A DNA stretch of 64,000 nucleotides from Ignavibacteriales bacterium (lineage in GTDB: Bacteria; Bacteroidota; Ignavibacteria; Ignavibacteriales; Melioribacteraceae): positions 1 through 64,000 of the forward strand of contig JAIOYW010000017.1 of the NCBI GenBank assembly GCA_021740915.1. The letters are read 5' to 3'. Positions 9,688 through 55,228 of the stretch are shown one piece after another; position 1 is the first letter of the stretch; every line of letters starts with the position of its first letter. A program made the translations under genes and the position numbers. The notes under the pieces were generated by a model. The model was given only the letters and a program-made list of their open reading frames with translations, searched no databases and was not told where the DNA came from.

Positions 9688-9761
9688 GGCGGGGTAGCTC
9701 AGCAGGTTAGAGCAATGGAATCATAATCCATGTGTCGGGGGTTCGAATCCCTCCCCCGCTA
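9688..9761 (+). tRNA. tRNA-Met (CAT), elongator type
   Basis: The 74-base sequence folds as a full cloverleaf: acceptor GGCGGGG/CCCCGCT with a G-U first pair, D stem GCTC/GAGC, anticodon stem ATGGA/TCCAT with loop ATCATAA (anticodon CAT), and T stem GGGGG/CCCTC with loop TTCGAAT. CCA is not encoded. The G1-U72 pair argues against initiator tRNA. Elongator Met is most likely; a modified CAT tRNA-Ile is the alternative. It sits 23 bp before secG. Confidence 0.93.
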
Positions 9762-20303: not shown

Positions 20304-21176
20304 TCACTTCAAATCCTTTGCACAACGGAATCCTATCTCATTGGAGTTAGTTTTCAGAGAGAAGCCCTTTCTTTCGGTCACTCTTATCATCACAGGATTA
20401 GGTGAATTCCAGTTGCCTCCTCTTATTATTTTACGTTCTTTTCCTTCGTCTTTATACTCAAAAGCATCAGTGTCATTTTTCCAGGAAAGCTTTTCATATC
20501 CGGGGTAGGGAGCGTAATCGGCGGAAGTCCATTCCCCGGCGTTTCCGGTCATATCATAAAGCCCGAAATCATTCGGCGGAAAAGAGCCGACCGGAACAGT
20601 ATCAATCGCCCTGCCGAAAATAAGCCTGACAACGCCGTCAAAAAATGATTCACCGCCATAACGCCATTTTGCTTTTGAGATATCTTTTCTATCCCCCCAG
20701 GAAAAACGTTTGTGCTTGCCGCCGGAAGAAGCGGCGTATTCCCATTCTTCTTCGGTAGGCAGTCTTTTCCCTGCCCATTTCGCATAGGAAACAGCATCTT
20801 GATATGTAACGCACACAACGGGATGCTCTTTTCTTTCCTCATCAAAATATTCTTTCCATTTGCCTTCCGCCTTGTAGCCGGTTGCTTCAACAAATTCACT
20901 GAACTGGCGGTTTGTCACTTCATGCTTATCAATATAGAATGAATTGACCTCAACGCTATGCCGCGGACACTCGTCCCCATACCAGAACTCAGCATGAGAA
21001 GGACTCATATGCGGCACATCTTTACCGATTTTCATAATTTCGGGAAGCTCGGACTGATCGATTCCCATTTCGTATTTTCCACCCTGAATCATTATCATAT
21101 CTCCGCCGGAATTCTGGGCAATTGCAGCCGAAAGCAGCCCGAAATAAACAAACAGATTGATAAACGATTTTCTCAT
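20304..21176 (-). CDS. FGE/SUMF1-fold secreted protein lacking the catalytic cysteines
   Basis: The 290-residue protein has a signal peptide (MRKSFINLFVYFGLLSAAIA). The rest is an FGE-sulfatase (formylglycine-generating enzyme) fold: MIMIQGGKYEMG, FYIDKHEVTNRQFSEF, RLPTEEEWEYAA, FGLYDMTGNAGEWT, RGGNW and the final IGFRCAKD. Active FGE has a Cys pair in the segment after RGG[SN]W; here that segment reads NSPNPVMIRVTERKG and has no Cys, so enzyme activity of the SUMF1 kind is unlikely. A binding or structural role, as in many FGE-like lectin-type proteins, fits better. Its ATG overlaps the stop of the upstream T9SS gene (ATGA), so the two are co-translated. Confidence 0.85.
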   Translation of the reverse strand: MRKSFINLFVYFGLLSAAIAQNSGGDMIMIQGGKYEMGIDQSELPEIMKIGKDVPHMSPSHAEFWYGDECPRHSVEVNSFYIDKHEVTNRQFSEFVEATGYKAEGKWKEYFDEERKEHPVVCVTYQDAVSYAKWAGKRLPTEEEWEYAASSGGKHKRFSWGDRKDISKAKWRYGGESFFDGVVRLIFGRAIDTVPVGSFPPNDFGLYDMTGNAGEWTSADYAPYPGYEKLSWKNDTDAFEYKDEGKERKIIRGGNWNSPNPVMIRVTERKGFSLKTNSNEIGFRCAKDLK

Positions 21177-24100
21177 TTTAACACCATCATCTTTTTAACA
21201 GAACCAAATCTTTCGCCGCCCCTGGTCAGAGCAGTTATCTTATAAAAATACACGCCCGAACTGAGATTTTCTGCTGAAAATTCAGTTTCGTAATTTCCCG
21301 CCTGGAGAGTTTTATTAACAAGGGTTTTAATATTTTCGCCCATTATGTTAAAAATTTCAATCTGAACCTGTGCTTCTGAAGGAATACTGTAATTAATTTT
21401 TGTCTGAGGATTAAACGGATTCGGGAAATTCTGCGATAAACTGAATACAGAGGGCATTTCCACCGAAGATATTTTTATCCATTCCGGCTGCTTTTTAATA
21501 ATAATTTCAGGATCAGTTTCACCAATGATCTCAACCGTGCCATCCGAAAGTTTAACTTCAACTGTCGTTCCGGATGCAGAAATGCTCAGAGGGAAATCAG
21601 CTCCGGAAAGCAATATCTCGCTTTCCTCATACATGTTTGCGGCGGACATGTCTCCTGAAAACCGTATATCAAAATTTCCAGCCGGAGGCAATGGTGGCAG
21701 TTCATAATAACTATCGGGTACTCCTTCGGTAAGCAGCAGTTTTACGCTTCTTCCCGAAGCATCAGTTAATGTGAGAACAGCGGCTTTTGCGGATTGTGAA
21801 TCGTCCGTTCGGGATTTCCGCTCTATTTTTTCTGAAAAAATCAGTGAGCCGGATTGAGAAGTTTTAAGCCAGTATCCTTTTCCCGGCTCAAGCGCCGCTG
21901 ATGATACGTAACCTGATGAATATGAATAGAAAGGAGTCTGGATTATACCAGGAGGATCGGAACTTACATTCGAAGCGCTTAGCGAAGAATTAAACGGACC
22001 GACTATATTCCAGCCCTGCTGAACGCTGACCGGGAAACTTACTGCACTCCCCGTAATATTAATTATTCCGCCGGAATTAAATTTCAGCCAGTACCCGGCG
22101 CCGTTTTCGAGTGTTGAGACCGGGATATAATTATTGTTAAAAAGAAATGCCGAAGAAGCGGCACCCGGAAATAGAGAAGAAACGCTCATATCATTTGCCT
22201 TTAACGGGACTGAAATAATATTCCAGCCGGCACTCACAGAAAAAGAGGAATTTTCAGGGCTGTCATCGAGAAGCATTTTATACGCTGACCTTCCATGAGT
22301 TGCAGCGAACAGCACTCTTCTGTTTCCGTCATAAACATGGTAATCAAAATCGATTGCAGGAACAACAGGCATTCCGGTTCCGGCACGTTCCCAGAAGCCG
22401 CCGCCATCAGTGGTATGATATACCCCAAGATCGTTCGCAGCATAAATGTGCGAGGCATCGTTCGGGTCAATGAAAATATCTGAAGCCGGGACATCCGGGA
22501 GATTTCCGCTGATATCCTGCCAGGTTGTTCCGAGGTTCCCGGAGCGGAATATTTTTCCTGTGCCGAATGAAGTTTTAACAAGATACAGGGTATAGGGATC
22601 AGTCCACGAGAATTTTACACGGGAAAGCGGTGAAGAAGGAGAAGGCAGCGAGGAACTTTTATTCTGCCATGTAACGCCGCCGTCTGTCGAAATCCAGAAG
22701 CCTGATGAAGAAACAACTGCGGACATATTAGCTGCCTGCACGGGGCTTATATCCAGCGAAGTAATGGCGCTTCCGCTCAGGGAAGGAGATATTGCCGTCC
22801 AAGCAGAGCCTGAGTTTGTTGAACGCCATATCCTGTCGCTTGCACAATACAAAGTTGAGTTTATTGAGGGGTGCATCATAAATGGGGCAGTCCAGGCAAC
22901 CGGCTGACTACCGAATGAAGGGGAGATATAATTGAAGGAGCCGTATCCGCCGCCATTAGTACTTTTATAAAAAGCGCCGTTCTGTGTTGACATATAAATG
23001 ATATTCGGATAAATATAGTCAACAAAACATTCCATGCCGTCGCCGGTGGTTACGAGCGTCCAGTTCGAAGAACCGCCGTTGGTGGTTCTGAAATTGCCGT
23101 TATCCTGGGCGCCGCCGAAAACAATGTTTTCATCGAGGGGATTGGATGCAATACGATAATATTGCAGTGTGCGGAGTCCCCTGTTAATATTAACCCAGGT
23201 AGCGCCTCCATCGGAACTGCGGTAGATGCCTCCGTCACAGCCGGCATACCGGACAGAATTATTGGAGGGTGCAAAGCGCATTATATGAAAATCCACGTGC
23301 ATCGACTGGCTCCAGTATTCTCCTCCGACATAGCTGAATGTTGATCCTGTTGTTGTGCGGTAAAGGTTAGCTTCACCGGCGTATATTTCATTCTGGTCTG
23401 AGGGATTTACCGAGATCAGAAGGTCGTACCAGCCCTGTCCGCTGGAAAAATTCTGCCCGACCTGTGTCCATGAAGCGGCTTTATTTGTCGATTTGAAAAC
23501 CTTCATCGAGGAATCGGTGAAATAAATAACACAGAACAATTGTCCTGTATTAGTTATATCGAAATGGACTCTTCCGATTGCAGAACTGTTTGATATGCCC
23601 GTAACAGCCTGCGACCAGTTGCCGCCGCCATTCGATGAAACGTATATTGAGTTATTGGTTGCAGCATATATATATGAACTGCTGATCGGATCGAAAACAA
23701 TATCGAAGCCATTATCGCTGCCAAGGATCCGGGCCCAGGTAAATCCTTTATCCGTACTGCGCCAGATCCCTTCATTTCCGGGACCGCCGAGATAGGAATA
23801 TCCGCTTGCAAGAGCAGCATAAAGGATGTCAGTGTTATGTGGGCTTACCCGTATCTGGGAGAAATGAGTAAAATTCCCGAAGCCTGAATTGATTTTAGTC
23901 CAGGTATTTCCGGCATCAGTTGAGCGGAAAAGCCCGCGTCCGTCAAATGTAACGTGATTAAAATATAGTATTGCTTCGCCTGAGCCGGCATAAATTATGG
24001 AAGGATTTTGCGGATCGATTGCAATAGCCCCGAAAGAGAGCGATTCCATGCCTCTGCCGATATCCTGCCAGCTTGCTCCGCCGTCTGTCGATTTCCAGAT

Positions 24101-24502
24101 GCCCCCGGCTGACGCTCCCACATATACAGTGTTCGGGTCGGCTGGATGAACGGCAATGGCTCTTACACGTCCGCTGACGATACCCCATTGCTGGGGAAAA
24201 CTTGAGACAATTCCGTCCGGACCGATATTTTCCCATAGCCTTGGATCTGCCGATTCCAATGAATTGAGTTTATTATTCTCAGATTCGACCAGATGCTGAT
24301 ATTTTGCAAGATTGACTGTATCTCCGGCAGGGAAACGCTGATCATAGAATTCAGCAAGTCGTTTATACTGGTTTCGGGACCGGGCATTCTGAAGAATAAT
24401 TTGTTCGCTGCTGAGTTTCGTCTGCGGGAAAATCATAATATTCGCAGCAAAAATAGTTAGCAGAATAAGACGGGATAGGATTGAATTCATGTTCTGATCC
24501 AT
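21173..24502 (-). CDS. T9SS-exported multi-BNR beta-propeller protein
   Basis: The ATG at 24502 (or 24490) is preferred over one at 24547 because it puts the signal peptide (MNSILSRLILLTIFAANIMI) at the N-terminus. Residues about 75-730 carry many Asp-box turns (STDGGASW, STDAGNTW, STDKGFTW, SSDGGATW, STDGGVTW, TTDGGGFW), so one or two sortilin-like propellers are likely. Residues 735-880 hold two copies of a module with GWNI[IV]xxPxxxxxxS[VA]S. The C-terminus is a type A sorting domain with NFPNPFNPQTKI, IMGENIKTL and SGVYFYKITAL. The predicted site of action is the cell surface. It is translationally coupled to the FGE-like gene. A 108-bp repeat lies 77 bp upstream of the start. Confidence 0.82.
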   Translation of the reverse strand: MDQNMNSILSRLILLTIFAANIMIFPQTKLSSEQIILQNARSRNQYKRLAEFYDQRFPAGDTVNLAKYQHLVESENNKLNSLESADPRLWENIGPDGIVSSFPQQWGIVSGRVRAIAVHPADPNTVYVGASAGGIWKSTDGGASWQDIGRGMESLSFGAIAIDPQNPSIIYAGSGEAILYFNHVTFDGRGLFRSTDAGNTWTKINSGFGNFTHFSQIRVSPHNTDILYAALASGYSYLGGPGNEGIWRSTDKGFTWARILGSDNGFDIVFDPISSSYIYAATNNSIYVSSNGGGNWSQAVTGISNSSAIGRVHFDITNTGQLFCVIYFTDSSMKVFKSTNKAASWTQVGQNFSSGQGWYDLLISVNPSDQNEIYAGEANLYRTTTGSTFSYVGGEYWSQSMHVDFHIMRFAPSNNSVRYAGCDGGIYRSSDGGATWVNINRGLRTLQYYRIASNPLDENIVFGGAQDNGNFRTTNGGSSNWTLVTTGDGMECFVDYIYPNIIYMSTQNGAFYKSTNGGGYGSFNYISPSFGSQPVAWTAPFMMHPSINSTLYCASDRIWRSTNSGSAWTAISPSLSGSAITSLDISPVQAANMSAVVSSSGFWISTDGGVTWQNKSSSLPSPSSPLSRVKFSWTDPYTLYLVKTSFGTGKIFRSGNLGTTWQDISGNLPDVPASDIFIDPNDASHIYAANDLGVYHTTDGGGFWERAGTGMPVVPAIDFDYHVYDGNRRVLFAATHGRSAYKMLLDDSPENSSFSVSAGWNIISVPLKANDMSVSSLFPGAASSAFLFNNNYIPVSTLENGAGYWLKFNSGGIINITGSAVSFPVSVQQGWNIVGPFNSSLSASNVSSDPPGIIQTPFYSYSSGYVSSAALEPGKGYWLKTSQSGSLIFSEKIERKSRTDDSQSAKAAVLTLTDASGRSVKLLLTEGVPDSYYELPPLPPAGNFDIRFSGDMSAANMYEESEILLSGADFPLSISASGTTVEVKLSDGTVEIIGETDPEIIIKKQPEWIKISSVEMPSVFSLSQNFPNPFNPQTKINYSIPSEAQVQIEIFNIMGENIKTLVNKTLQAGNYETEFSAENLSSGVYFYKITALTRGGERFGSVKKMMVLK

Positions 24503-24578
24503 GTTTTTGTGATCAAATTCCGGAGGATAATAGAAGTAAATATACAACTTGCAGCGAAAATATTAGTGCTTTATTGGG

Positions 24579-24686
24579 GTATCTTCCTCCTCCCGGACTT
24601 AAGCCCGGGGTTTAGAAATGATGGCTTTACTGAATCCCGGAAAATAAAATGATGTGAAAACTGAAGCATAGGAATTGGTGCAGATA
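24579..24686. repeat. 108-bp direct repeat, left boundary of the helicase-methylase island
   Basis: The sequence from GTATCTTCCTCC to GGTGCAGATA is repeated at 33573-33680 in the same orientation with one mismatch in 108 positions (24680). It contains a small hairpin (CCCGG-ACTTAAGC-CCGGG). The two copies enclose an 8.9-kb, four-gene block. Confidence 0.92.
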
Positions 24687-25220
24687 CTTCAAATAGCAAA
24701 ATTGGCAAAAATGACCCTCTTGAGAGGAGATGTCATATAATAACATCATTTCAGCAAGAATCCTATCGGCGACAGGATAAGATTTAAGCTTTTTCTGCTG
24801 AAAAACATGATACTAAAATCCTGGTCAATTCTTAATATTTATAAACGGATATCATATCCGGAAATAGTTTAGTTAAAATATTCCTTGTTGCTTTATTGAT
24901 TATCAAATAATTAAGAATTATTTTAGGAAATAATGGAAACAGAGGGATTTAGACTGATATCCAAGAAAAATTCCATATTTTGAAACAACCATGGAATTTA
25001 AAAAATAGCCTGGTAATGAAAATACAAAATCAACTAATAACCCGACACGCATTTCATATACTCTTTTGTAAAAGTATGTTGAATTCTTGCAGAAAAATTA
25101 TTTTTATTTTGAAATTGTTGCAGAAAAGCATCGTTAAATACAGAAATAACAATACGGGCAGTAATTATTTGACTGCTTTTTGGCTAAATCATTATTGTTT
25201 CATTCCCGAAGAGTTGATAC
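24687..25220. other. AT-rich leader region of the island
   Basis: These 534 bases lie between the left repeat and the helicase start. I see no convincing gene: an 85-codon open frame at 24980-25237 has no ribosome site and no recognisable composition. A TATAAT (near 24736) and AT-rich stretches around 24830-24960 could hold the island promoter, but no clear -35 partner is visible. Confidence 0.3.
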
Positions 25221-28200
25221 ATGCCAAAGATTTTTGATAACATTAACCTCCATCTGAAAACAGGATTATTGGAAACCCTTGAAGGCTCATACCGGGCTGA
25301 TTTCTGTGTGGGATACTTCAACCTTCGCGGTTGGAGATTATTGATGAACCAGATAGATAATTTCGAGGGGCAGGATAATTGCTGCAGGCTGCTGATAGGT
25401 ATGCAAATGCCTGACGAAGATCAGTTGCGAAAGGCCCTGAGTGAATCGGCAACCGGATTAATGGATAACCCCACTGCTAATATCCTGAAAAAAGAAGTAG
25501 CCCGATCTTTCGCCAAACAGCTCACATTTGGGATGCCTACCGATGATGATGAAAACGCTCTGAGGAAATTGAAGTTTCAAATTTCACAATCAAAACTGAA
25601 AGTCAGACTATTTCTTGCTTATCCATTGCATGCCAAGCTTTATCTGTGTCACAAAAATGATAACGATGCTCCGCTTATTGGTTACGTTGGGAGCAGTAAC
25701 CTGACAATGGCAGGATTAGCAAAGCAGGGGGAACTAAACGTAAATATTGTCGAGCAGGATGCAGCAGAAAAGCTGGATAAATGGTTTGAAGAAAGATGGA
25801 ATGACCGCTGGTGTGTAGAAGTATCTGATGAACTTATTCAAATAATAGAAAATAGCTGGGCGGGAGAGAAAAGCATTCTTCCTTACTATATATACTTAAA
25901 AATAGCTTACCATTTATCGCAGGAAGCCAGGAGCGGCATTGGCAATTATATCATTCCAAAAGTATTAAAAACTGACCTGCTTCCTTTTCAAATGAATGCT
26001 GTCAGTGTTGCAGCCAGGCATCTTGATAAAAGGGGCGGAGTACTTATTAGCGATGTTGTCGGCCTTGGAAAGACTATGACAGCAACGGCTGTCGCCAAAT
26101 TATTTGAAGAGACATTTTTTACAGAGACACTAATTATCTGTCCAAAAAATCTTGTAGAAATGTGGGAAGGCTATGTTCACAATTATCAGTTAAGGGCCAA
26201 AGTACAAAGTTCCTCTAAAATTGACTGGAACTTCCTGGAAAAAACGAGGCGCTACAGAGTGGTGATTATCGACGAAAGCCATAATCTTAGAAACCGTGAA
26301 GCGAAACGTTATGCGATACTAAAGGATTATCTTGATACCAATGAGAGTAAAGTGATCCTTTTAACAGCAACTCCTTACAATAAAAGCTATACCGATATTT
26401 CAAATCAACTCCGCCTGTTCATTCCTGAGGACAAAGACATTGGGATCTCCCCAGATAATCTTATCAAACAGGTAGGAGGTGTTGTTGAGTTTATTGCAAA
26501 ATACCAGTATATGCCCTCGACGTTACTTGCATTTGAGAAAAGTGAATTTGCCGAGGATTGGCAGGAATTACTTAAACATTATATGATACGGCGTACAAGA
26601 ACTTTTATCAAAGAAAATTATGCGGGGTTCGATACTGAGAAAAAGCAACACTTCATTACATTTAACGATGACAGGATTGAATACTTCCCGGATAGAATCC
26701 CAAAGAAAGTGGAATATTCATTTAATCCGAAGGATGAAAAGGATATTTATGTAAAGCTTTATGATGATGATACTGTGAACACTATAAACAGCCTTTATCT
26801 TGCGCGATACGGATTAGGCAACTACATTAATAAACAGGCGGAAGTATCTGCAACTGAAGCCGAAAGAAAGATAATAACGAACCTAAGCCGCGCCGGTAAA
26901 AGGCTGATGGGGTTCTGCAGAACAAATCTTTATAAACGCCTTGAAAGTTCGGGTTTTTCTTTTCTTATCTCGCTTGCGCGCCATGTTTTGCGCAATGAGG
27001 TTTTTATCTATGCAATAGAGAGCGGTTTGCCATTTCCTATCGGGCAGCAGGAAAAAGCTGAAATGGATGAATTTCTTGAAGAAAACGATAATGATGATAA
27101 CGAAGAATTAAAAATATTAACGGAAAAATCAGAATATAAACGACTTGGCAAGAAATTCTATGAAAAATGTGCAGTTGAAAAGAATAGATTCGATTGGATT
27201 TCAGCAGATCTCTTCACTAAAGAATTGAGGACACAAATTGAAAGCGACAATGAACAGATTCTGACAATACTTGAAACAGGTAAAAACTGGAATTCAGACA
27301 ATGATAAAAAACTTGATGCACTCGAAGAACTTTGCCGGAAAACTCATAGTGTGGAAAAAATTCTGATTTTCACGCAGTTTGCTGATACAGCGCTTTATCT
27401 CTTCGATAAATTGCAGAAAAGGGGCGTAAGGAACATTGCCTGTGCAACCGGTGATGCAGAAAACCCTTCAGAATTAGCTAAGCGCTTTAGTCCGGTAAGT
27501 AATAAGTGTGCAAATATTAATGATGAGATACACGTGCTGATAAGCACCGATGTACTGAGCGAAGGACAAAATCTGCAGGATGCTCATATAATAGTGAATT
27601 TTGATTTACCCTGGGCGATTATAAGGCTAATACAGAGAGCGGGAAGAGTTGACAGGATAGGCCAAACTTCAGACAAAATTCTTTGTTATTCATTTTTACC
27701 GCATGATGGGCTCGATCAGATAATCAGATTGAGAAGCAGACTTAGAAAAAGGATAAAAGAGAATGCAGAAGCCGTAGGTGCCGATGAAGTATTTTTTGAT
27801 GGCGATCCTGTAAATATCAATGACCTCTACAGCGAAAAAGCAGGTATTCTCGATGATGATGAAGATGATGTAGATCTTACTTCTCAGGCATATGAGATAT
27901 GGAATAAGGCTGTCAGATCAAACCCTGCGCTGAAGAATAGAGTTATACAGCTCGCTGATGTTGTTTATTCAACAAAAGAAAAAACGGATGAAATATTTCC
28001 GGCTGAGGGGGTTATAACTTATCACAGGAACAGACAGGGTTTCGAGTTGCTTTCTTTGATAAATGACGAAGGAAATATTATTTCAACAAGTCAGACGAAA
28101 ATACTGAAAATCGCCGAATGTTCCCCTGATACGCCCGCACGGGAAAAATTACCTGATCATCATAAACTGGTGAAGAAGACTGTGCAGAATGCTGAGAAAG

Positions 28201-28535
28201 AAGCCTCCGGAACAGGCGGCCAGCTTGGTAATAAATCCAATGCCCGGTATAAGGCTTATGGAATGCTTACACGCTATTATGAATCTGTGAAAAGTACTCT
28301 GTTTGATGTTGATGCCCTGAAAAAAACAATTGATGATATTTACCATTATCCTCTTAGAGAGCCGGCAAGAGAATTAATTAACCGCCGCATAAAATTTGGC
28401 TGCACAGACGATGAAATGGCATCTCTATGTATGCAGCTCCGTGATGAAGGAAGACTGTGCGTCATTGAGCAGAAAGATCAGGATAATTTCAAAGCGCCGC
28501 AAATTATTTGTTCACTTGGTATAAAAAAATTGTGA
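25221..28535 (+). CDS. PLD-nuclease/SNF2-family helicase fusion
   Basis: The 1104-residue protein starts with a phospholipase D-like domain: HAK at 137-139 followed by GYVGSSNLT (GSSN 157-160) is the HxK...G-S-x-N nuclease motif. A SNF2/HepA-type helicase follows: DVVGLGKT (Walker A, 278-285), DESH (351-354), LLTATPYNKS (motif III), STDVLSEGQNLQDA (motif V) and QRAGRVDRIGQ (motif VI, near residue 805-815). The order PLD-SNF2 is seen in helicases of restriction and DISARM-like loci. It probably translocates on foreign DNA and cuts or remodels it. The methyltransferase gene begins 4 bases after its stop, so they form one operon. Helicase motifs appear intact; a single HKD motif implies a dimeric PLD site. 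Confidence 0.88.
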   Translation: MPKIFDNINLHLKTGLLETLEGSYRADFCVGYFNLRGWRLLMNQIDNFEGQDNCCRLLIGMQMPDEDQLRKALSESATGLMDNPTANILKKEVARSFAKQLTFGMPTDDDENALRKLKFQISQSKLKVRLFLAYPLHAKLYLCHKNDNDAPLIGYVGSSNLTMAGLAKQGELNVNIVEQDAAEKLDKWFEERWNDRWCVEVSDELIQIIENSWAGEKSILPYYIYLKIAYHLSQEARSGIGNYIIPKVLKTDLLPFQMNAVSVAARHLDKRGGVLISDVVGLGKTMTATAVAKLFEETFFTETLIICPKNLVEMWEGYVHNYQLRAKVQSSSKIDWNFLEKTRRYRVVIIDESHNLRNREAKRYAILKDYLDTNESKVILLTATPYNKSYTDISNQLRLFIPEDKDIGISPDNLIKQVGGVVEFIAKYQYMPSTLLAFEKSEFAEDWQELLKHYMIRRTRTFIKENYAGFDTEKKQHFITFNDDRIEYFPDRIPKKVEYSFNPKDEKDIYVKLYDDDTVNTINSLYLARYGLGNYINKQAEVSATEAERKIITNLSRAGKRLMGFCRTNLYKRLESSGFSFLISLARHVLRNEVFIYAIESGLPFPIGQQEKAEMDEFLEENDNDDNEELKILTEKSEYKRLGKKFYEKCAVEKNRFDWISADLFTKELRTQIESDNEQILTILETGKNWNSDNDKKLDALEELCRKTHSVEKILIFTQFADTALYLFDKLQKRGVRNIACATGDAENPSELAKRFSPVSNKCANINDEIHVLISTDVLSEGQNLQDAHIIVNFDLPWAIIRLIQRAGRVDRIGQTSDKILCYSFLPHDGLDQIIRLRSRLRKRIKENAEAVGADEVFFDGDPVNINDLYSEKAGILDDDEDDVDLTSQAYEIWNKAVRSNPALKNRVIQLADVVYSTKEKTDEIFPAEGVITYHRNRQGFELLSLINDEGNIISTSQTKILKIAECSPDTPAREKLPDHHKLVKKTVQNAEKEASGTGGQLGNKSNARYKAYGMLTRYYESVKSTLFDVDALKKTIDDIYHYPLREPARELINRRIKFGCTDDEMASLCMQLRDEGRLCVIEQKDQDNFKAPQIICSLGIKKL

Positions 28536-28538
28536 TTT

Positions 28539-31500
28539 ATGGAAACTATTAGTAAAAGATTATTCAGGCAGTACATCGAGGATTTCGATTTCATAAATCT
28601 TTTTAATTATTTAGGCTGGTCATTTCTTGATGAGAGAACCCTTGTTAAATTAGGCGAGGATAATCATTATTTCAATTCAGTAGCTGAAAAACGCGGGTTT
28701 CGGATCTTCGTTTATTACCCGGATAATGATGATAAACTGCCCGATTATGCTACCCGTCTTAAACTTGACCGCGAACTTGGTAAAAAATTTCATGAACACC
28801 TTATTATTTTTTGTGACAAAAACCTTACAACACAGGTCTGGCAATTATTTATAAAACAGACGGGTAAACCTTCAAGACTTAGTGAAACACGGTGGCATAA
28901 AGGACAGGAACCTGAACTGCTTTACCAGAAAACTTCCAGCCTGTTTTTCACACTCGATCAGGAAGAAAACATAACGATTGCTGATGTAGTTGGTGTTGTA
29001 AATGAAAACTTCAATAAAAATATTGAGCAGGTAACTAAGAAATTTTACGAAAGTTTCCGCAAAGAGCATAAACAATTTCTTGGGTTTATTGAAGGTATTT
29101 CATCTATCACCGATAGAGAGTGGTATGCTTCACTTATGCTTAACCGCCTGATGTTCTGTTATTTTATTCAGAAAAAAGGTTTCCTCGATAATAATATTAA
29201 TTACTTAAAGGACAAACTGACTTATTCTCAGCAGAAAAAAGGCAGGGATAAGTTTTACGTGAGTTTTTACAAAAACTTTCTTTTGGCTTTATTTCATCAG
29301 GGTTTGGGTTCACCAAATCAGCCGGAAGAATTAATAAAAGAGATTGGAAAAATCCCTTACTTAAACGGCGGCTTATTTGATGTCCACGAACTTGAAAACC
29401 AGTACAATAGCATAAAGATAAATGATGAAGCATTTGAAAGAATTTTTGATTTTTTCGACCAATATACATGGCATTTGGACACAGGAATTAATGCCACCGG
29501 CAGAGACATTAACCCAGATGTAATCGGTTATATATTCGAAAAATATATTAACGACCGCTCGCAGATGGGCGCTTATTACACTAAGGAAGATATTACAGAT
29601 TACATTGGTAAAAACACTGTCATTCCCTTTTTATTCGATGAAACTGGTAGAAAATACCCAAAAGCATTTCAGCCGGGCGCTGAAATATGGCAGATGTTTC
29701 AAGAGTCAGGGGACAGATATATTTATGATGCTGTGAAAAAAGGGATTGATACTGAAAACCTCGATTTTAATACCTCCGGGGATATCGACAGCCCCGGCCA
29801 CCAGCTCTGGGCTGATCTTCCCGCTGAAATTCTTGCCGGCTTCAGACCTGATCTAAAAGATAATATTGTTTCCGATAGCAATGAAGAGCATCTCTGGCAG
29901 CTTCGCAAAGCCTGGAATAAACAGGCGCCTGATAATATTTCCCTGCCTGCTGAAATTTACCGCGAACTTATTGAACGGAGGAAACGCTATTTCGGGCTGC
30001 GTAAAAAAATTGATAATGGCGAAATTTCAAGTATCAACGATTTTATAACATATAATCTTAATATAAGGCAATTTGTCCAGGATATAGTTGAGACACACAG
30101 CGATCCCTATTTCATAAAACATTTCTATAATGCTCTGACGAATGTTACAATCCTCGATCCGACCTGCGGATCAGGCGCTTTTCTTTTTGCTGCAATGAAC
30201 ATACTTGAACCGCTTTATGAAAGCTGCATTATGCGTATGCGCGCTTTTGTTGAAGACGAGGATATGACTAACAATGAGAATAAAAAGCAATTCAGCAACA
30301 GTTATAAGGGTTTCCGTGAAATATTGCAGCAAATCCAGCACCCGCAGCACCCGAATCTCAGGTATTTTGTTTTCAAAAGTATTATTCTGAAGAATCTCTA
30401 CGGCGTCGATATAATGAAAGAAGCGGTTGAAATTGCAAAACTCCGGCTCTTCCTTAAACTGGTTGCCACAGTTGATGCCGATCACCGCAAGCCTAATCTT
30501 GGTCTTGAACCTCTCCCCGATATTGATTTTAATATAAGAGCAGGAAACACACTTGTTGGTATTGCAGCCGAGAAGGAATTGGATAATGCTTTTGAAGGGC
30601 ATCTGGATCTGGATGGTGATCTCGGAAAAATTAAAGAAAAATGTGATGTTGTTGCCCGTGCTTTTCAGCGTTATAAAGAAATTCAACTTGCCGATGGGGA
30701 TAATTTTAAGGATTTTAAGAAGGTAAAAGAAGAAATTAATAATCTTTTATCCAGTCTCAAAGACGAACTTGACCACCTGATTGCAAAAACCCAATATGGA
30801 ATCGACCTTACTGATAAAAATCAATATCATGACTGGCAAATTACTCATCAGCCCTTTCATTGGTTTGCCGAATTTTATGAAATTATTAATGACCGAGACG
30901 GCTTTGATGTGGTAATTGGAAATCCGCCTTACGTTAATTTTAAGAAGATTGATTACAGCATTATTTCGTCTTGTTATAAAAGTTTTGATTGCAAAGATTT
31001 GTTTGCATTAACAATTGAAAGAAGTCAAAACATAATTACTGAAAAAGGGAGAAGCGGGTTTATTATTCCATTAAGTGGGCTCTCAACAGAAACAATGAAA
31101 TCGCTTAAAAACTTAATTTTCAGCTTGAACTCTAATTCTTGGAATAGTTATTATTCTGCTTCAGATCAACCAGCATCTTTATTTACTTGTGTAAGGCACA
31201 GACTGCTAATTACACTCAATGAATATTCAAAACTTGCTTTAATAAAGAGAAGGTATTCTACTAATTTTATAAAATGGTTTTCTAATGAAAGAGAACAACT
31301 TTTTTCAAAATTCCTAAAATATGCGGAGTTGTCTGATGATATTCCTGCTAATTCTAAATTATCAAATGGAATAGAAAAAAGTATTCTCTCAAAACTTAAT
31401 ACAAATAAAACCTTAAATAATTATATAGTGCAAACAGGGTCAATTGTTTACTATCATAATGCACCAGTCCATTGGGGAAAAGTAGTTGATTTCATTCCTT

Positions 31501-31955
31501 ATTTTTCTGTTGGTGATAATGTTCAGCAATCTTCACATTTAAAAGAGCTATATTTTGACTCAAAAGAAAATTCAGAAGTAGTAATTTGCTTACTAAATAG
31601 TTCTCTTTTTTATTGGTTTAATTGGCAATACTCTAATTGTCGTGATTTGTCACAAAAAGACATTTTTAGAATGCCGTTATCTATGTGCAAAGTCAGTGTA
31701 TTGATTAAAAAGAAACTTTGTTCATTGAAGACAGAATTAATGAAAGATCTTAAAGAAAACAGCAAAATATACCAACGATATTCTGGAGGAATTTTAACTG
31801 AATTTGATTCTTTTTATCCTGCTTTTTCTAAACCCATCATTGACAAAATCGACACATTATTAGCCGAGCATTACGGCTTCACAGAGGAAGAATTGGATTT
31901 TATAATCAATTATGATATAAAGTACAGGATGGGTAAAGAGCTGGAGGAAGACTGA
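28539..31955 (+). CDS. Large N6-adenine DNA methyltransferase (Eco57I/PglX-like)
   Basis: The 1138-residue protein contains SAM-binding motif I DPTCGSGAF (540-548) and catalytic motif IV NPPY (795-798, in DVVIGNPPYVNF), which are N6-adenine methyltransferase signatures of the Eco57I/COG1002 type. Residues 1-500 form a long N-terminal region as in type IIG and BREX PglX proteins, but I see no certain nuclease motif in it. Residues 830-1090 are the likely target recognition domain; the DNA there (about 30960-31800) is clearly more AT-rich than the first part of the gene, suggesting domain exchange. It presumably marks self DNA so that the helicase-nuclease ignores it. It is coupled to the helicase gene (4-bp gap). 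Confidence 0.88.
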   Translation: METISKRLFRQYIEDFDFINLFNYLGWSFLDERTLVKLGEDNHYFNSVAEKRGFRIFVYYPDNDDKLPDYATRLKLDRELGKKFHEHLIIFCDKNLTTQVWQLFIKQTGKPSRLSETRWHKGQEPELLYQKTSSLFFTLDQEENITIADVVGVVNENFNKNIEQVTKKFYESFRKEHKQFLGFIEGISSITDREWYASLMLNRLMFCYFIQKKGFLDNNINYLKDKLTYSQQKKGRDKFYVSFYKNFLLALFHQGLGSPNQPEELIKEIGKIPYLNGGLFDVHELENQYNSIKINDEAFERIFDFFDQYTWHLDTGINATGRDINPDVIGYIFEKYINDRSQMGAYYTKEDITDYIGKNTVIPFLFDETGRKYPKAFQPGAEIWQMFQESGDRYIYDAVKKGIDTENLDFNTSGDIDSPGHQLWADLPAEILAGFRPDLKDNIVSDSNEEHLWQLRKAWNKQAPDNISLPAEIYRELIERRKRYFGLRKKIDNGEISSINDFITYNLNIRQFVQDIVETHSDPYFIKHFYNALTNVTILDPTCGSGAFLFAAMNILEPLYESCIMRMRAFVEDEDMTNNENKKQFSNSYKGFREILQQIQHPQHPNLRYFVFKSIILKNLYGVDIMKEAVEIAKLRLFLKLVATVDADHRKPNLGLEPLPDIDFNIRAGNTLVGIAAEKELDNAFEGHLDLDGDLGKIKEKCDVVARAFQRYKEIQLADGDNFKDFKKVKEEINNLLSSLKDELDHLIAKTQYGIDLTDKNQYHDWQITHQPFHWFAEFYEIINDRDGFDVVIGNPPYVNFKKIDYSIISSCYKSFDCKDLFALTIERSQNIITEKGRSGFIIPLSGLSTETMKSLKNLIFSLNSNSWNSYYSASDQPASLFTCVRHRLLITLNEYSKLALIKRRYSTNFIKWFSNEREQLFSKFLKYAELSDDIPANSKLSNGIEKSILSKLNTNKTLNNYIVQTGSIVYYHNAPVHWGKVVDFIPYFSVGDNVQQSSHLKELYFDSKENSEVVICLLNSSLFYWFNWQYSNCRDLSQKDIFRMPLSMCKVSVLIKKKLCSLKTELMKDLKENSKIYQRYSGGILTEFDSFYPAFSKPIIDKIDTLLAEHYGFTEEELDFIINYDIKYRMGKELEED

Positions 31956-32043
31956 CCACCCTCCCTGGGGAACCGGGAAATATTTAACGGCAGTCAGCGT
32001 AATTATTACTACTGCCTATCAGCAGTTAAAAACTAATATTAAT

Positions 32044-33066
32044 ATGGAAAACCGATTAGAAGCAAAGAATGAGCAATTTGAGGGCTTAATAACAGAAATA
32101 ACCCGCCTTATTGAGCAAAGCCGCGCTCAGGTGATAATTTACTCCAACAGCGCTTTGACAATGCTTTTCTGGCAGGCAGGTAAAAAAATAAACGACCACA
32201 TACTACGGAATCAAAGGGCTGAATACGGGCTGCAGATTGTCGTTACACTGTCACGGGAATTGGCGGGCAGTTACGGCAGAAATTTTGAGGAAAAAAATCT
32301 GCGCCGGATGATGCAGTTCGCCGGGCAATTCCCTGAAGAGGAAATTGTCGTTACATTGTCACGACAATTGAGCTGGTCTCATATTATAACCCTGCTGCCG
32401 TTAAAAAAACATGATGCAAAAATGTTTTATGCTTTGCAGACTGCAGAACAGGGCTGGAGTGTGCGCGAGCTCAGGAATAAAATAGCGACAAAAACATTTG
32501 AAAGAACAGAAATTGCCAACACACAAGTTAAACTTAATAATCCTGCTCTTTTAAATACATTCAAAGACCCTTATCTTCTTGACTTTTTACAGCTTCAGAA
32601 TGCGTATATGGAAAAAGATCTGGAACAGGCAATTTTAAGAGAATTGGAGAATTTTATTCTTGAAGTAGGCAAAGGATTTGCATTTATTGAACGCCAGAAA
32701 CGAATGATAATAGATGGCGAGGACTTTCATATTGATCTGCTTTTTTATCATCGTAAACTAAAAAGGCTCGTTGCAATTGAGCTTAAAATGGGGAAATTCC
32801 AGTCGAGCGATAAAGGGCAGATGGAGTTATACCTTAAATGGCTAAATAAATATGAACGGCAGGAAGGGGAAGAAAAGCCGGTTGGTCTGATTCTTTGTGC
32901 TGAAACCAGCCGTGAGCAGGTCGAACTTCTGGAAATGGAGAAAGACGGAATAGTAGTGGCAGAATACTGGACCGAATTGCCGCCCAAAAAAGAGCTTGAG
33001 AAAAAATTACATGAGGCGTTAATAGAAGCAAAAGAGAAAATTGAAAAAAGAAAACTGATGAATTAA
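32044..33066 (+). CDS. YhcG-type DUF1016 PD-(D/E)xK nuclease
   Basis: The 340-residue protein matches the YhcG/DUF1016 family. The N-terminal DUF1016_N part covers residues 10-150 (SNSALTMLFWQAGKKI, SYGRNFEEKNLRRMMQF, LSWSHIITLLPLK). The C-terminal nuclease domain has FHIDLLFYH (Asp231) and AIELKMGKF (Glu246, Lys248), a good PD-(D/E)xK site, followed by the family's GQMELYLKWL. The family is repeatedly associated with restriction and defence loci. It begins 88 bp after the methyltransferase stop on the same strand and probably shares the transcript. Its exact substrate is unknown; DNA cleavage is inferred from the motif. Confidence 0.9.
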   Translation: MENRLEAKNEQFEGLITEITRLIEQSRAQVIIYSNSALTMLFWQAGKKINDHILRNQRAEYGLQIVVTLSRELAGSYGRNFEEKNLRRMMQFAGQFPEEEIVVTLSRQLSWSHIITLLPLKKHDAKMFYALQTAEQGWSVRELRNKIATKTFERTEIANTQVKLNNPALLNTFKDPYLLDFLQLQNAYMEKDLEQAILRELENFILEVGKGFAFIERQKRMIIDGEDFHIDLLFYHRKLKRLVAIELKMGKFQSSDKGQMELYLKWLNKYERQEGEEKPVGLILCAETSREQVELLEMEKDGIVVAEYWTELPPKKELEKKLHEALIEAKEKIEKRKLMN

Positions 33067-33116
33067 TTCCGGTAAAAAAAACTCTTTGAGCAAATTTTGT
33101 GAAAATCAACTGAACA

Positions 33117-33572
33117 ATGGAATTTTTAGGTAACGAGAATATTTTAACCCTTTCCAAAACAGCTTTTTTATGCAGCCGTAAAGTTCCTGCATCCGCTGTA
33201 TTAAGGTGCTACGCCTGGGCTATTGGAGAGAGGGATGCCGGTAATTGTATTATAGGCGGCTTTCATAGTCAGTTGGAAAAGGATGTGCTGCATTATCTTC
33301 TTAATGGCACTCAGCCGATAATAGTTGCACTTGCGCGCGGATTAAAAGAAAGAATAGAAAAAGAATTAATAAAACCTTTAGATGAAGGAAGGCTTTTAAT
33401 AATAACGCCTTTTGATAAAAACGTAAAAAGGGTAAATCAATACTCGGCAAATCGAAGAAATAAAATGATGATCGAAATCGCGGAATTTATTACGGTTGGT
33501 TTTGCGAGCGAAGGTGGAAACCTGGAATCGTTATTACAACAGACTTCTAAACCCGTAACACGTTTAGTTTAA
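33117..33572 (+). CDS. Short DprA/Smf-like Rossmann-fold protein
   Basis: The 151-residue protein resembles the Rossmann core of DprA/Smf DNA-processing proteins but is much shorter. Recognisable features are CIIGGFHSQLEKDVLHYLL (the DprA position of the GxDxxAH loop), QPIIVALARGL, LLIITPF and the closing FASEGGNLESLL. It lacks the extra N- and C-terminal domains of DprA. It is the last gene of the island, and the right 108-bp repeat begins at the first base after its TAA. Small DprA-like proteins of this kind also occur beside restriction-type genes, so a nucleic-acid or nucleotide-sensing role in the system is likely but unproven. Confidence 0.7.
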   Translation: MEFLGNENILTLSKTAFLCSRKVPASAVLRCYAWAIGERDAGNCIIGGFHSQLEKDVLHYLLNGTQPIIVALARGLKERIEKELIKPLDEGRLLIITPFDKNVKRVNQYSANRRNKMMIEIAEFITVGFASEGGNLESLLQQTSKPVTRLV

Positions 33573-33680
33573 GTATCTTCCTCCTCCCGGACTTAAGCCC
33601 GGGGTTTAGAAATGATGGCTTTACTGAATCCCGGAAAATAAAATGATGTGAAAACTGAAGCATAGGAATTGGTACAGATA
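33573..33680. repeat. 108-bp direct repeat, right boundary of the island
   Basis: Matches 24579-24686 at 107 of 108 positions, same orientation. Its first base follows directly on the stop codon of the DprA-like gene. The following 160 bp to the next gene contain only a terminator. Confidence 0.92.
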
Positions 33681-33781: not shown

Positions 33782-33822
33782 AAAAAAAAAGGCTGCCCCA
33801 ATAAAGGGACAGCCTCAAAAAA
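33782..33822 (-). terminator. Terminator for the giant T9SS gene (minus strand)
   Basis: Read on the minus strand, AGGCTGTCCC and GGGGCAGCCT pair with one mismatch around TTTATT and are followed by a long run of T. It lies 20-60 bp after the stop of the 33841-37791 gene. On the + strand the same hairpin also follows the island. Confidence 0.85.
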
Positions 33823-33840: not shown

Positions 33841-36800
33841 TTATTTTACAAGCATCATTTTCTTTGCGATATTAATACCCTGTCCGCTGAATCGGTAAAT
33901 ATAAATACCCGAAGAGAGTCCGGCGGCATTAAAGGCATAAGTGTATGTTCCGGCCTGGAATTCACCGTCAACAAGTGTTCTTACTTCTTGCCCTAAAATA
34001 TTGTAGATCTTCAGGCTGTAATTTCCTGCGGAAGGAATACTGAACTGTATTCTTGTTGCCGGGTTAAATGGATTAGGATAATTCTGCGATAAATCAAAAG
34101 ATGAAGGAATATCCGTCTGCTCGCGTTTTAATCCAAGCACAATATCCTGCCTGTAAAGCAGACCATCTCTTGTACCGGCATACATCATACCGTCTGTATC
34201 GTTATAAAGAACGGAGCTGACTCCGAAGCCGCCCATTCCGTATGGCTGCCAGCTAAAGGATTTGTTTACGAAACTGAGCATATAAACACCGCCTGCCCAA
34301 CTGCTAACGTAAATGCTGTTATCGGGATCGACAAGCACAGAATAGACAAAAGGTGCATTGAGACCGGCATTCAGATTCTGCCAGGAGGCGCCAAGATCGA
34401 ACGATGCAAAAACTCCGCCGCCATATGTAGCCGCAATAAGTTTATCATCGGATGTAATATCCATTGCCCAGATATAATCGTAACCGACACTTAGCTGAGT
34501 CCAGTTATCAGGCTCGTATTTATAAACTCCGCCGCCCATCGTTCCGGCATAAAGATTGCCGTGCGAGTCCGCAGTGAGAGCGTGTACGGCAAGATTATTC
34601 AGGCCGTTATTGATCGGCACTGCATTGGGGCTGCCGTACTGGAGTCTGTAAACTCCGCCGCCCCACACGCCCATATAAACGCTGTTATCCGATTTGGCAA
34701 GAGCTCTCACGTCCATTCCGGAGAGTACCTGAGTCCATGCACTCTGTGAGGTATTGGACTTGAACACGCCCAATTCGGTCGCCGCAAAAATAGCGCCGTC
34801 ATCTTCAACGTGAAGATCCCAAACCCATGCGACACCCATTCCATCGTTGATATGTGTTCTCTGATTATTCAGATCGATTTTATATATTTTTCCTCCGGCA
34901 GTACCGATGTAATTATTACCATCAATATCAACAGCCATTGCCCATACGATTTCAGTGGGTTCGAAACTGCTTATAAGCTGCCAGTTATTATTCTGTCCGC
35001 TGCCGTTGCCATTACCGTTTCCGGGATCGTTCGAGCTTACTGTAAGATTGACCGACGCAGAATTATTATCGCCGTTTATATCTTCCTGATCAACATTGAG
35101 CAGAGCCGCAGTATTAACAACAGCCTGATCGACAGGCACGTTTCCAACAAAAGGTGAGAAATTGAACTGAGCCTGTCCTTCGAGTGATTTTGCGATCATC
35201 TGTCCATTCTGCTGCCCGGTGTGGAACTTAACATGGGCTTTCGGCGCAAGGATCGATCCCTCAACAGCAATGCCGAATACCTCAAATTCTGTTGCTTCAA
35301 AGAAATTGTAGATAACCTGCTGGCGCGATGCCCCGATAACGGAGAGTCCGCCTGTCAAAACCAGGTTATTTCCGGGAATATTAATAATAACGACTGAACC
35401 GTTCGGAGCGCTTATAACCTTTGTATGTGTTGTGTTAAATTCAGTCTCAGTTACATCAAATACGTTTATTATCGGATCATCTCCTGTAAGGTTGAGCTGA
35501 CCTTCGAAAACACTGACGGAACCATCGGCAGGCAATGCTGCAAGCTGTGCTGAAACTGATTTCAGATGAATTTCAGCAGCTTCAAAGTCGATTGGATTTC
35601 CTTTAATTATATCTCCATCAATATAAAGCGGATTCACTGTAACGCTGTTTCCATAAACTGCGTTTCCGAATACCCTTCCCGTTACAAATTCGAGATCACC
35701 ATCAACAATAAGTACGTCTTCGTACTCGTTTCCGTGCACTATTTTATCGCCGACACTGTATTCAGAGAGGTATGCGTCTCCGCCTACGGCCATTTTGCCC
35801 TCGGTATCCGAGGAAGGCTGTGAAATATTTCGGAATATAAATACATTATATGGAGCAGCAATTCCGAAATCAACAAGAGTAGCATTTGCAAAATCTACGT
35901 CAACCGTTGTAGTAATATCAAGGGTTGCTGCCTGATCCGGAGCAAGAGTCCCGATATTCCATATTCCTGTTACATTATTATAATTTGCTGATGAAGAGGA
36001 AACAAATACAAGGCTTTCAGGCAGAAGATCGCCAACTCTTACGTTTGAGGCTTCGGCAGTCCCGATATTTTTAGCAGTAACCGTAAACAGAACAGTTGCA
36101 CCGTCCTGCACATTCTGTGTTGCAGTGGTTTTTTCAATTTTAATGTCAACATCTCCGACCGGCAGCATATAAATTCCGGCATCCCAGGTCAAATCATTCT
36201 CACCTGATTCTAATTGTTCACATAATGTATAACCATTGGCGGGATTTGCATCTGAATCTGTGGCATCATTTCCTTCATTCCGGAGTGTGAAAACGTAACC
36301 TTCGGGGAGATGAAACCTTACCTTATAGTTTCCGGCAGTAAGTTCGCTGAATCCGTATATTCCGCTTGCATTTGTAGTGGTTGTTGCGACAAAACCACCC
36401 TGGCAGTTATACAGATCGACAACTACACCCTGAACGCCCGTTTCACCGCCATCCTGCTGCCCGTTTTTATTTGCATCGTTCCAGACTTTATCGCCGACTG
36501 AAGCTTTAAGCGCAGGTGCAAGGAACATAATTCCGGCATCCCAGCTCATGTCATTTTCGCCCATTGCCAGCCATGTGCAGGGAGTGTAGCCTGTAGAAGT
36601 GTGAGCATCAGAATCCTTGTTATCGTCCTCTCCTTCGTTCTGTCCGGTAAATACATAATTTTCCGGCAGAGTAAATTTCACTTTATAACTTCCGGATTCA
36701 AGGTTTTCAAAAATATATTTGCCCGAATTATCTGTTGAAGAGGTGGAGAGCAGTTCACCATTGCAGTCGTATAACTGAACCGTTATTCCGGATTTTCCCG

Positions 36801-37791
36801 GCTCGCCTTCATCCTGGATACCATTTTCGTTTGTATCCTCCCATACAAAATTTCCTATCGATGATTTTTCACCAACCAGGCCGGCATCCCAGCTCATGTC
36901 ATTTTCACCTTTGCTCAGATAGGTGCAGGTAGTGCGTCCCGTTTCCGGATCGGCATCAGAATCAAGATCATTGTCGCCGGCATCCTTCGTAGTAAAAACA
37001 TAACCCGAAGGGGCTGTAAACTTAACGTAGTAGGATCCTTTCTGAAGATTTGAAAAAGTATAATTACCGTTTGCATCGGTAGTGGTTGTTGCTTTCAACT
37101 CATTGTCGCAGTCATATAATCTTACCGTAACACCCTGCATACCCGGCTCGCCGTTATTCTGTATCCCGTTTCCGTTCTGATCAGTCCAGACCAGATCGCC
37201 GATGGAAGGATTATCGCTGCAGGTGAGGAATCCTTTGTTTACGGTGCCATTGTCGAAGTTCTCGTTGAATTTTGTTGCGGCATCGTTAATGTCGGAATAA
37301 GAATAACCGCCGGTATTTCCGCCGCAAAGGGCACTTTGGGCAAGAGCAAGAAAATCGGCAACAGTCCATCCTTCAAAGTCGCCATCTTCTATTATCAGAT
37401 CACGCACAGGAGTCGGATTGGTTCTTGTGTAACCATTAGCATCAAAAGTTACATTCAATGTCATTGCCACGACTTGTCCGGCAAGCACAGACAATTTTGA
37501 AGTGGGATCAACATAATTTCCGGAAATTTTCTTAGCCTTGCCGCCCTGAGGCAAAAATCCTCTGATTGCGTCCGGGGTGGTAAAGGTAAGCGATGCTCCT
37601 GGTCCGCTTATTACGAGTCCGGCAGGGAAAGCCTGACTGAAATAAGTATCCAGGGTCTGACCGGGAGTACTGTTCGATGGACTTCCCCATCCTCCCTGAG
37701 TGTAAGTCAGATAGCCGCTGAGATCGCAAATGCTCGCGGAAAGAGTTCCGGCTGTCAGAAACACTGCAATCAGTAAAAATAATTTCTTCAT
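33841..37791 (-). CDS. Giant T9SS adhesin-like protein (SdrD-B, DUF11, choice-of-anchor A, propeller)
   Basis: This 1316-residue mosaic has a signal peptide (MKKLFLLIAVFLTAGTLSAS) and an N-terminal region to about 190. Three SdrD-B-like modules follow (about 196-305, 310-420 and 430-545), each opening with [SA][SV]G[DN].VW and a calcium-type loop (DQNGNGIQ, DTNENGIQ, DANKNGQQ) and ending SWDAG or TWDAG. A DUF11-like domain lies at about 550-640. A choice-of-anchor A-type domain starts near YNVFIFRNISQ (about 645-880). A Gly/Asn linker leads to a propeller (about 985-1230) with VYKYEP and GTRDGLLYR turns. It ends in a type A sorting domain (NYPNPFNPATRI...SSGIYIYRF). It should be a surface or released adhesin. 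A perfect AGGAGG precedes the start. Confidence 0.85.
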   Translation of the reverse strand: MKKLFLLIAVFLTAGTLSASICDLSGYLTYTQGGWGSPSNSTPGQTLDTYFSQAFPAGLVISGPGASLTFTTPDAIRGFLPQGGKAKKISGNYVDPTSKLSVLAGQVVAMTLNVTFDANGYTRTNPTPVRDLIIEDGDFEGWTVADFLALAQSALCGGNTGGYSYSDINDAATKFNENFDNGTVNKGFLTCSDNPSIGDLVWTDQNGNGIQNNGEPGMQGVTVRLYDCDNELKATTTTDANGNYTFSNLQKGSYYVKFTAPSGYVFTTKDAGDNDLDSDADPETGRTTCTYLSKGENDMSWDAGLVGEKSSIGNFVWEDTNENGIQDEGEPGKSGITVQLYDCNGELLSTSSTDNSGKYIFENLESGSYKVKFTLPENYVFTGQNEGEDDNKDSDAHTSTGYTPCTWLAMGENDMSWDAGIMFLAPALKASVGDKVWNDANKNGQQDGGETGVQGVVVDLYNCQGGFVATTTTNASGIYGFSELTAGNYKVRFHLPEGYVFTLRNEGNDATDSDANPANGYTLCEQLESGENDLTWDAGIYMLPVGDVDIKIEKTTATQNVQDGATVLFTVTAKNIGTAEASNVRVGDLLPESLVFVSSSSANYNNVTGIWNIGTLAPDQAATLDITTTVDVDFANATLVDFGIAAPYNVFIFRNISQPSSDTEGKMAVGGDAYLSEYSVGDKIVHGNEYEDVLIVDGDLEFVTGRVFGNAVYGNSVTVNPLYIDGDIIKGNPIDFEAAEIHLKSVSAQLAALPADGSVSVFEGQLNLTGDDPIINVFDVTETEFNTTHTKVISAPNGSVVIINIPGNNLVLTGGLSVIGASRQQVIYNFFEATEFEVFGIAVEGSILAPKAHVKFHTGQQNGQMIAKSLEGQAQFNFSPFVGNVPVDQAVVNTAALLNVDQEDINGDNNSASVNLTVSSNDPGNGNGNGSGQNNNWQLISSFEPTEIVWAMAVDIDGNNYIGTAGGKIYKIDLNNQRTHINDGMGVAWVWDLHVEDDGAIFAATELGVFKSNTSQSAWTQVLSGMDVRALAKSDNSVYMGVWGGGVYRLQYGSPNAVPINNGLNNLAVHALTADSHGNLYAGTMGGGVYKYEPDNWTQLSVGYDYIWAMDITSDDKLIAATYGGGVFASFDLGASWQNLNAGLNAPFVYSVLVDPDNSIYVSSWAGGVYMLSFVNKSFSWQPYGMGGFGVSSVLYNDTDGMMYAGTRDGLLYRQDIVLGLKREQTDIPSSFDLSQNYPNPFNPATRIQFSIPSAGNYSLKIYNILGQEVRTLVDGEFQAGTYTYAFNAAGLSSGIYIYRFSGQGINIAKKMMLVK

Positions 37792-38130: not shown

Positions 38131-38162
38131 TAAAAAACACCCCGGGCTTTAACCCGGGGAGA
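38131..38162 (-). terminator. Terminator after mscL (minus strand)
   Basis: On the minus strand CCCCGGG-TTAAAG-CCCGGGG forms a 7-bp GC stem (38140-38159) followed by TGTTTTTTATA. It lies about 70 bp after the mscL stop. The stem resembles the hairpin inside the 108-bp repeat. Confidence 0.75.
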
Positions 38163-46341: not shown

Positions 46342-46371
46342 AGCGGGATGCTTACTTTACGATATTTGCCT

Positions 46372-49875: not shown

Positions 49876-49883
49876 CTTGTTCT

Positions 49884-52697: not shown

Positions 52698-52698
52698 T

Positions 52699-55210: not shown

Positions 55211-55228
55211 AATACATACCTTATTATT

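Follow-up and report, generated by a model that had tools for sequence, protein, structure and literature searches.

A putative mobile, split restriction-modification-type operon with an exchangeable cargo slot lies between 108-bp direct repeats in an Ignavibacteriales genome

The stretch of DNA analysed here (the window) comprises positions 1–64000 of the forward strand of contig JAIOYW010000017.1 from an Ignavibacteriales bacterium (GenBank assembly GCA_021740915.1), and contains a four-gene island enclosed by two 108-bp direct repeats. We interpret this locus as a mobile, split ATP-dependent restriction-modification (R-M)-type defence operon, a reading to which we assign a probability of about 0.62. 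All four genes between the repeats are intact and lie on the + strand: a PLD(HKD)-SNF2 helicase of 1104 aa (25221–28535), a predicted N6-adenine DNA methyltransferase of 1138 aa (28539–31955), a DUF1016/YhcG PD-(D/E)xK nuclease of 340 aa (32044–33066; PADLOC candidate PDC-S02) and a single-domain DprA/ShosA-like protein of 151 aa (33117–33572). The left repeat (24579–24686) is separated from the helicase gene by an AT-rich leader (24687–25220; 29% GC), and the right repeat (33573–33680) begins at the first base directly after the stop codon of the DprA-like gene. A preliminary description of the window had proposed this layout, with exactly four co-directional genes and their domain calls, and it is borne out by the coordinates, by a profile scan and, for the DprA fold, by AlphaFold and Foldseek.

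A species-level genome scan yielded 80 comparable loci from many phyla. In 50 of 72 loci the helicase lies directly 5' of the methyltransferase, with |gap| <= 60 nt. Of the 56 evaluable loci, 40 have a DprA-like gene downstream in the same orientation, and none has one on the opposite strand. Helicase carriers make up about 3% of the sampled genomes of the phylum (13/395). Among genomes sampled from the order to which L102, a Prevotella, belongs, the share is 2.5% (10/393). In the phylum sample, DprA-like matches are strongest (E<=1e-59) in eight genomes, every one of which has the helicase and/or the methyltransferase; two of these matches lie at contig edges and one is beside a truncated methyltransferase. 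The kept gene order, together with the location of the strongest DprA-like matches within system-carrying genomes, points to helicase–methyltransferase–DprA, in that order, as the conserved unit.

Between the methyltransferase and DprA-like genes is a slot that is empty in 15 of 46 loci and otherwise holds up to six genes. Its cargo includes Gabija (GajA, E=6e-170; GajB, E=1e-127), OLD-like ATPases, DUF1016, RhuM, DarT, PDC-S05, PDC-S19, Schlafen/AlbA and Y1 transposase genes. When cargo classes are placed on a tree of 79 methyltransferases they change 22 times, compared with a mean of 21.3 for shuffled labels; slot cargo is thus without phylogenetic signal on this tree, and since changes are no fewer than with shuffled labels, slot turnover outpaces the divergence of the core. 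The DUF1016 protein of the window, which contains DUF1016_N and YhcG_C nuclease domains, is on these grounds encoded by one of many interchangeable cargo genes outside the conserved unit, because Gabija takes its place in L033, the closest relative found (59% identity in the methyltransferase), and because two further DUF1016/YhcG genes are present elsewhere in the same genome (G000:C18:111385-111837 and C27:85961-86416). The earlier proposal of a four-gene set with conserved order is therefore sustained as to order across genomes but not as to the four genes forming a unit. All four genes do occur in this order elsewhere, in L035, L057 and L102 (with extra slot genes) and in L070 (where the helicase lies off the contig).

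Ten plasmid records also match, including Synechocystis pSYSX and Pelobacter pPRO1, and no DprA-like gene was found in the three that were inspected. At two plasmid-borne loci (L118, Synechocystis pSYSX 43696-51129, and L120) the helicase/methyltransferase pair encloses a VapC-type toxin gene pair and is followed by DUF2513, and on pSYSX a multiubiquitin/E2/ThiF cluster adjoins the pair. A literature search found no functional paper on the pSYSX homologue.

The predicted biochemistry of the core can be read from its two large proteins. The methyltransferase is an Eco57I/MmeI methylase by domain, of the gamma-class N6-adenine type, with the motifs DPTCGSGAF and GNPPY, and it matches the PADLOC model REase_MTase_IIG (PDLC03628) with E=1e-288, the best stretch being residues 433–1137. 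In the structure model (pLDDT 86) residues 160–1126 adopt an MmeI/DrdV-like fold; residues 162–1138 align with BrxX/PglX, CamA, MmeI, LlaGI and LlaBIII, and the model also aligns with HsdM. Residues 1–125 form an alpha-beta domain, and no conserved D...(D/E)xK was found in the expected strands of this domain among 58 homologues, so the helicase rather than the methyltransferase is more likely to be the cutting component. The profile scan assigns PLDc_2, SNF2-rel_dom and Helicase_C domains to the helicase, and its top PADLOC model is C3a139 'HKD+Snf2' (E=1.6e-54). It contains a single HKD half-site (H137, K139, G157-S158-S159-N160 and E171) as well as the motor motifs Walker A GLGKT (281–285) and DESH (351–354), and the HxK, GSSN, GLGKT and DESH residues are kept across an alignment of 69 helicase relatives. 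With one half-site per protein, cutting would probably require two molecules, by analogy with BfiI-type enzymes, which are a precedent for cutting with the HKD half-sites of two molecules.

We propose that the methyltransferase, with its own target-recognition part, would mark host DNA at an adenine within its site. It would also serve as the site-recognition module that engages the PLD-SNF2 protein on unmarked DNA. The SNF2 motor would then travel along the duplex, and the HKD half-sites would cut upon the meeting of two copies. The DprA-fold protein, probably a nucleic-acid or nucleotide sensor, may license or restrain the nuclease or the cargo, and DUF1016 would provide an embedded second, independent layer of defence within the exchangeable slot.

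The DprA-like protein admits a different role. Its AlphaFold model (pLDDT 96.8) comprises one DprA-fold domain, for which Foldseek ranks ShosA first (E=4e-8) with DprA next, and its sole family match is PsyrA (E=1e-7). These matches suggest a protein that acts on the cargo or the helicase as antitoxin or repressor, as in PsyrTA/ShosTA, in a locus that acts by abortive infection. We find this doubtful, given that the gene is kept in the 15 loci that lack any cargo and that its partner is neither a RecQ nor a phosphoribosyltransferase toxin; no neighbour of either kind was found at this locus, and membership of PsyrTA/ShosTA was rejected for want of the cognate toxin.

A second alternative concerns the fate of incoming DNA: as in BREX or DISARM, the methyltransferase might mark self while the helicase, without cutting, prevents phage from replicating. 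Foldseek indeed places BrxX/PglX first for the methyltransferase model, with a nearly full-length alignment, and the helicase shows similarity to the DrmD and BrxH models, albeit below cut-off (DrmD, 140 bits against a cut-off of 610). Moreover, an HKD + Swi2/Snf2 protein is found with an N6-methyltransferase in the Type 2 DUF499-centred BREX-related systems (Hma; PMC12839542). However, PglZ, BrxC/DUF499 and DrmA/B are all missing from the locus, the genome contains no DUF499 match over cut-off and a single PglZ match, to a 523-aa frame that lies on a different contig, and the HKD residues are conserved throughout the 69 helicases. We therefore regard a non-cutting mechanism as unlikely, and prefer the split restriction-modification-type operon.

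The two repeats align without gaps, with a single difference at position 102 (G/A), and are 8994 bp apart from start to start. Only these two copies are present in the 4.35-Mb genome (4,348,092 bases searched; E=5e-51 and 1.5e-49), so they reflect neither chance nor a dispersed element, and the repeat is not scattered, in agreement with the preliminary description. Their GC content (42.6%) resembles that of the flanks (44%) and differs from that of the island (37%) and its leader (29%); the island as a whole is at 37.3%, and the remainder of the window at 42.0%. The left neighbour, a secreted-type gene on the - strand (21173–24547), faces the island with its 5' side, and its upstream region includes the left repeat; the right neighbour, a second secreted-type gene on the - strand (33841–37791), faces it with its 3' side. 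The unit would have inserted upstream of gene 21173–24547 with duplication of a 108-bp target, leaving the upstream region of that gene intact on one side. Other identities for the repeat were tried and rejected. It is not a REP/BIME (repetitive extragenic palindromic/bacterial interspersed mosaic) element, as its 18-bp palindrome has no perfect genome copy outside both repeats and it folds no better than shuffled sequences (z=-0.55). Nor is it an integron attC, since its sequence shows neither recognisable core sites nor a fold of the hairpin type; neither a nearby tRNA nor an Rfam match suggests a tRNA-associated island or a known RNA element; and a search of 50,697 phage records for a phage origin gave no match at E<=1e-40.

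An origin by target duplication has a counterpart in a relative. In L109, a Treponema metagenome-assembled genome, the helicase–methyltransferase pair is flanked on both sides by copies of the gyrA promoter together with the first codons of that gene (123–135 bp, 90% identity; 1438–1572 and 8297–8419). The copy on the right continues into the GyrA frame (E=3e-159) and that on the left is a 22-codon stub; the repeated DNA here is plainly that of the target, and the gene beside the insertion remains intact. This is the best independent case of target duplication that we found. Weaker cases are L056, where a 79-bp flanking repeat apparently represents the 3' end of a gene, and L107, where a 59-bp repeat is apparently the 5' region of a type IIG gene. 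These comparison cases lie largely on draft or metagenome contigs, in which assembly error is possible. R-M units are reported to enter their sites with long, variable target duplications of about 100 bp (PMC3874152; PMC3031569), and in the window direct repeats of this size exactly border an R-M-type unit.

The same repeats could be read as attL and attR of a site-specifically integrated island, its integrase lost or acting in trans, in which case excision would be reversible. Long, nearly identical direct repeats placed precisely at the island edges fit such a reading, att-like duplications at gene ends are classic, and a recombinase gene adjoins the helicase in one plasmid relative. But no integrase, transposase or other recombinase was found among the window open reading frames (ORFs) scanned (all but ORF 52699-53436), as the preliminary description had noted for integrases; there is no tRNA at the site, the sole tRNA of the window being at 9688; and repeat lengths and targets vary among relatives (108 bp and intergenic here, 123–135 bp at the gyrA 5' end in L109), unlike a single att site. 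We judge site-specific integration to be improbable. Of the two origins offered earlier for the repeats, target duplications or excision sites, the gyrA case and the published behaviour of R-M units favour the former over the latter.

Duplicated DNA is also found within the slot. Extra copies of the methyltransferase 3' end (motif ELDFIINYDIKYRMG) number 17, in 14 of 98 loci; L059, whose copy is a near-complete second methyltransferase, is best treated separately. All 17 lie on the same strand and within 9 kb downstream of the methyltransferase (550 kb scanned), and 2.53 Mb of sequence elsewhere or on the other strand yielded none. They often stand after cargo genes. At L125:12503-14719 it is the DprA-like gene whose first 32 codons are duplicated, directly after the methyltransferase and before a deaminase-containing cargo gene. 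Two loci (L072:13327-19696 and L062:13279-20084) each contain a pair of DprA-like genes separated by fragments of the methyltransferase 3' end, an arrangement of tandem slot modules of divergent sequence. At L035:6564-8302 and L070:2646-3683 the cargo (Y1 transposase-like protein, DUF1016) carries an in-frame methyltransferase C-terminal tail.

The 3'-end copies may stem from insertions that duplicated their target, or from homologous recombination that uses these conserved ends as anchors. We tentatively suggest that the methyltransferase 3' end and the DprA 5' end might be dedicated seams at which cargo enters, leaving a copy of the seam behind, and that whole units could enter new sites likewise, by one and the same insertion process, which would duplicate a long stretch of target and leave essential genes such as gyrA unharmed. 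That the copies are instead functional docking tags on the cargo, rather than insertion scars, is very unlikely: the DUF1016 proteins of L035 and L070 do terminate in-frame with the tail (RYRMGKELDSGEDEE and RYRMGRELDSGEEE), but the copies in L074, L080 and L089 are interrupted by frameshifts or stops, that in L066 lies outside any called cargo ORF, and the DUF1016 protein of the window has no tail.

Several observations weigh against a mobile R-M-type operon with these three core genes. The slot of the window contains no methyltransferase 3'-end copy, its tailless DUF1016 included. The DprA-like gene is absent or unseen in 16 of the 56 evaluable loci, and may thus be accessory to the system. 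Long flanking repeats are not general: they occur in direct orientation in 6 of 75 loci, versus 2 of 75 on the opposite strand (5 of 49 loci in a smaller set), and several of these repeats are dispersed or resemble miniature inverted-repeat transposable elements (MITEs). The repeat of L073 proved to be an overlap artefact; those of L071, L074, L090 and L100 look dispersed, low-complexity or MITE-like, and that of L094 is 67% identical over 813 bp. Finally, a single-copy empty site was not found in 79 family genomes, none of them of the same genus, the matches being nearly all to the coding region for the type IX secretion system (T9SS) sorting domain of a flanking gene. Separately, the MITE-like direct repeats around the Thermaurantimonas unit of L090 (4692–5194 and 14099–14603) are 505 bp long, 86% identical and have GTTGCACAAC/GTTGTGCAAC ends.

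Some features of the window lie outside the island. An intrinsic terminator-like hairpin with a T run, on the - strand and belonging to gene 33841–37791, is found just beyond the right repeat (33789–33816). A palindrome at 38141–38158 (CCCGGGCTTTAACCCGGG), just 3' of mscL, is similar to that within the 108-bp repeat, and is probably a hairpin of the mscL transcript. Further downstream, a gene run at 46372–57959 encodes CHAT+TPR, OmpA+TPR+VWA and CHASE2+guanylate cyclase proteins, a possible signalling cluster.

The locus thus appears to represent a restriction-like operon that is conserved across many phyla and has a DprA-fold protein as its third component. We found no published description of such an operon, nor any named system with the SNF2/PLD/methylase/DprA gene set, in the part of the literature covered; the PADLOC matches here are to models of single components. 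Within it, the defence genes of the slot turn over fast enough to erase phylogenetic signal. The original work on insertion of R-M units with long target duplication, in H. pylori, is reportedly that of Nobusato in 2000 and Furuta in 2010, and the recurring direct repeats (of 108 bp in the window, of the gyrA 5' end in Treponema and of the methyltransferase 3' end around cargo) make the old question of how such insertion comes about directly testable in a defined system. Scars of duplicated DNA at the relatives or their cargo hint at how bacterial defence genes move and exchange.

Among known systems, the operon would work most like Type ISP or Type I restriction, and it resembles BREX-related systems. 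With Type ISP enzymes (LlaBIII, LlaGI) and Type I enzymes it shares a methyltransferase with built-in target recognition, an ATP-driven superfamily 2 (SF2) motor and a nuclease, but motor and methyltransferase are here two proteins, the nuclease is of the HKD/PLD rather than the PD-(D/E)xK type, and there is a conserved DprA-like third gene; no separate HsdS is present among the four proteins, which excludes membership of Type I R-M. As in Type IIG enzymes, methyltransferase and target recognition are combined in one polypeptide, whereas the N-terminal domain lacks a recognisable nuclease motif and the protein is paired with a helicase-nuclease. The Hma Type 2 systems likewise pair an N6-methyltransferase with an HKD + Swi2/Snf2 protein, but the DUF499 ATPase (HmaC) is missing from the window locus and the HmaA match reaches only 74 bits, so the locus was not assigned to Hma. 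Hma loci are themselves known for embedded candidate genes (PADLOC 'HEC'). A PglX-like methyltransferase with an SNF2-type helicase is also seen in BREX, DISARM and ARMADA, but the island has no PglZ, BrxC, DrmA/B or YprA-type gene; BREX was rejected for lack of PglZ or a BrxC/DUF499-type ATPase, and DISARM because the four proteins have no DrmA or DrmB (DUF1998) match over cut-off, a composition as non-canonical as had first been proposed for this restriction-like locus. PsyrTA and ShosTA (DprA-PRTase) share the DprA fold, which in the window forms a single 151-aa domain with no phosphoribosyltransferase (PRTase) or RecQ partner. As for mobility, the closest likeness is to the H. pylori R-M units, described as R-M-type genes between target repeats of about 100 bp (PMC3874152; PMC3031569), although here the operon is of the helicase type, has nested cargo and occurs in other phyla. 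The locus is, in our assessment, an R-M-type defence with an unusual mobility signature.

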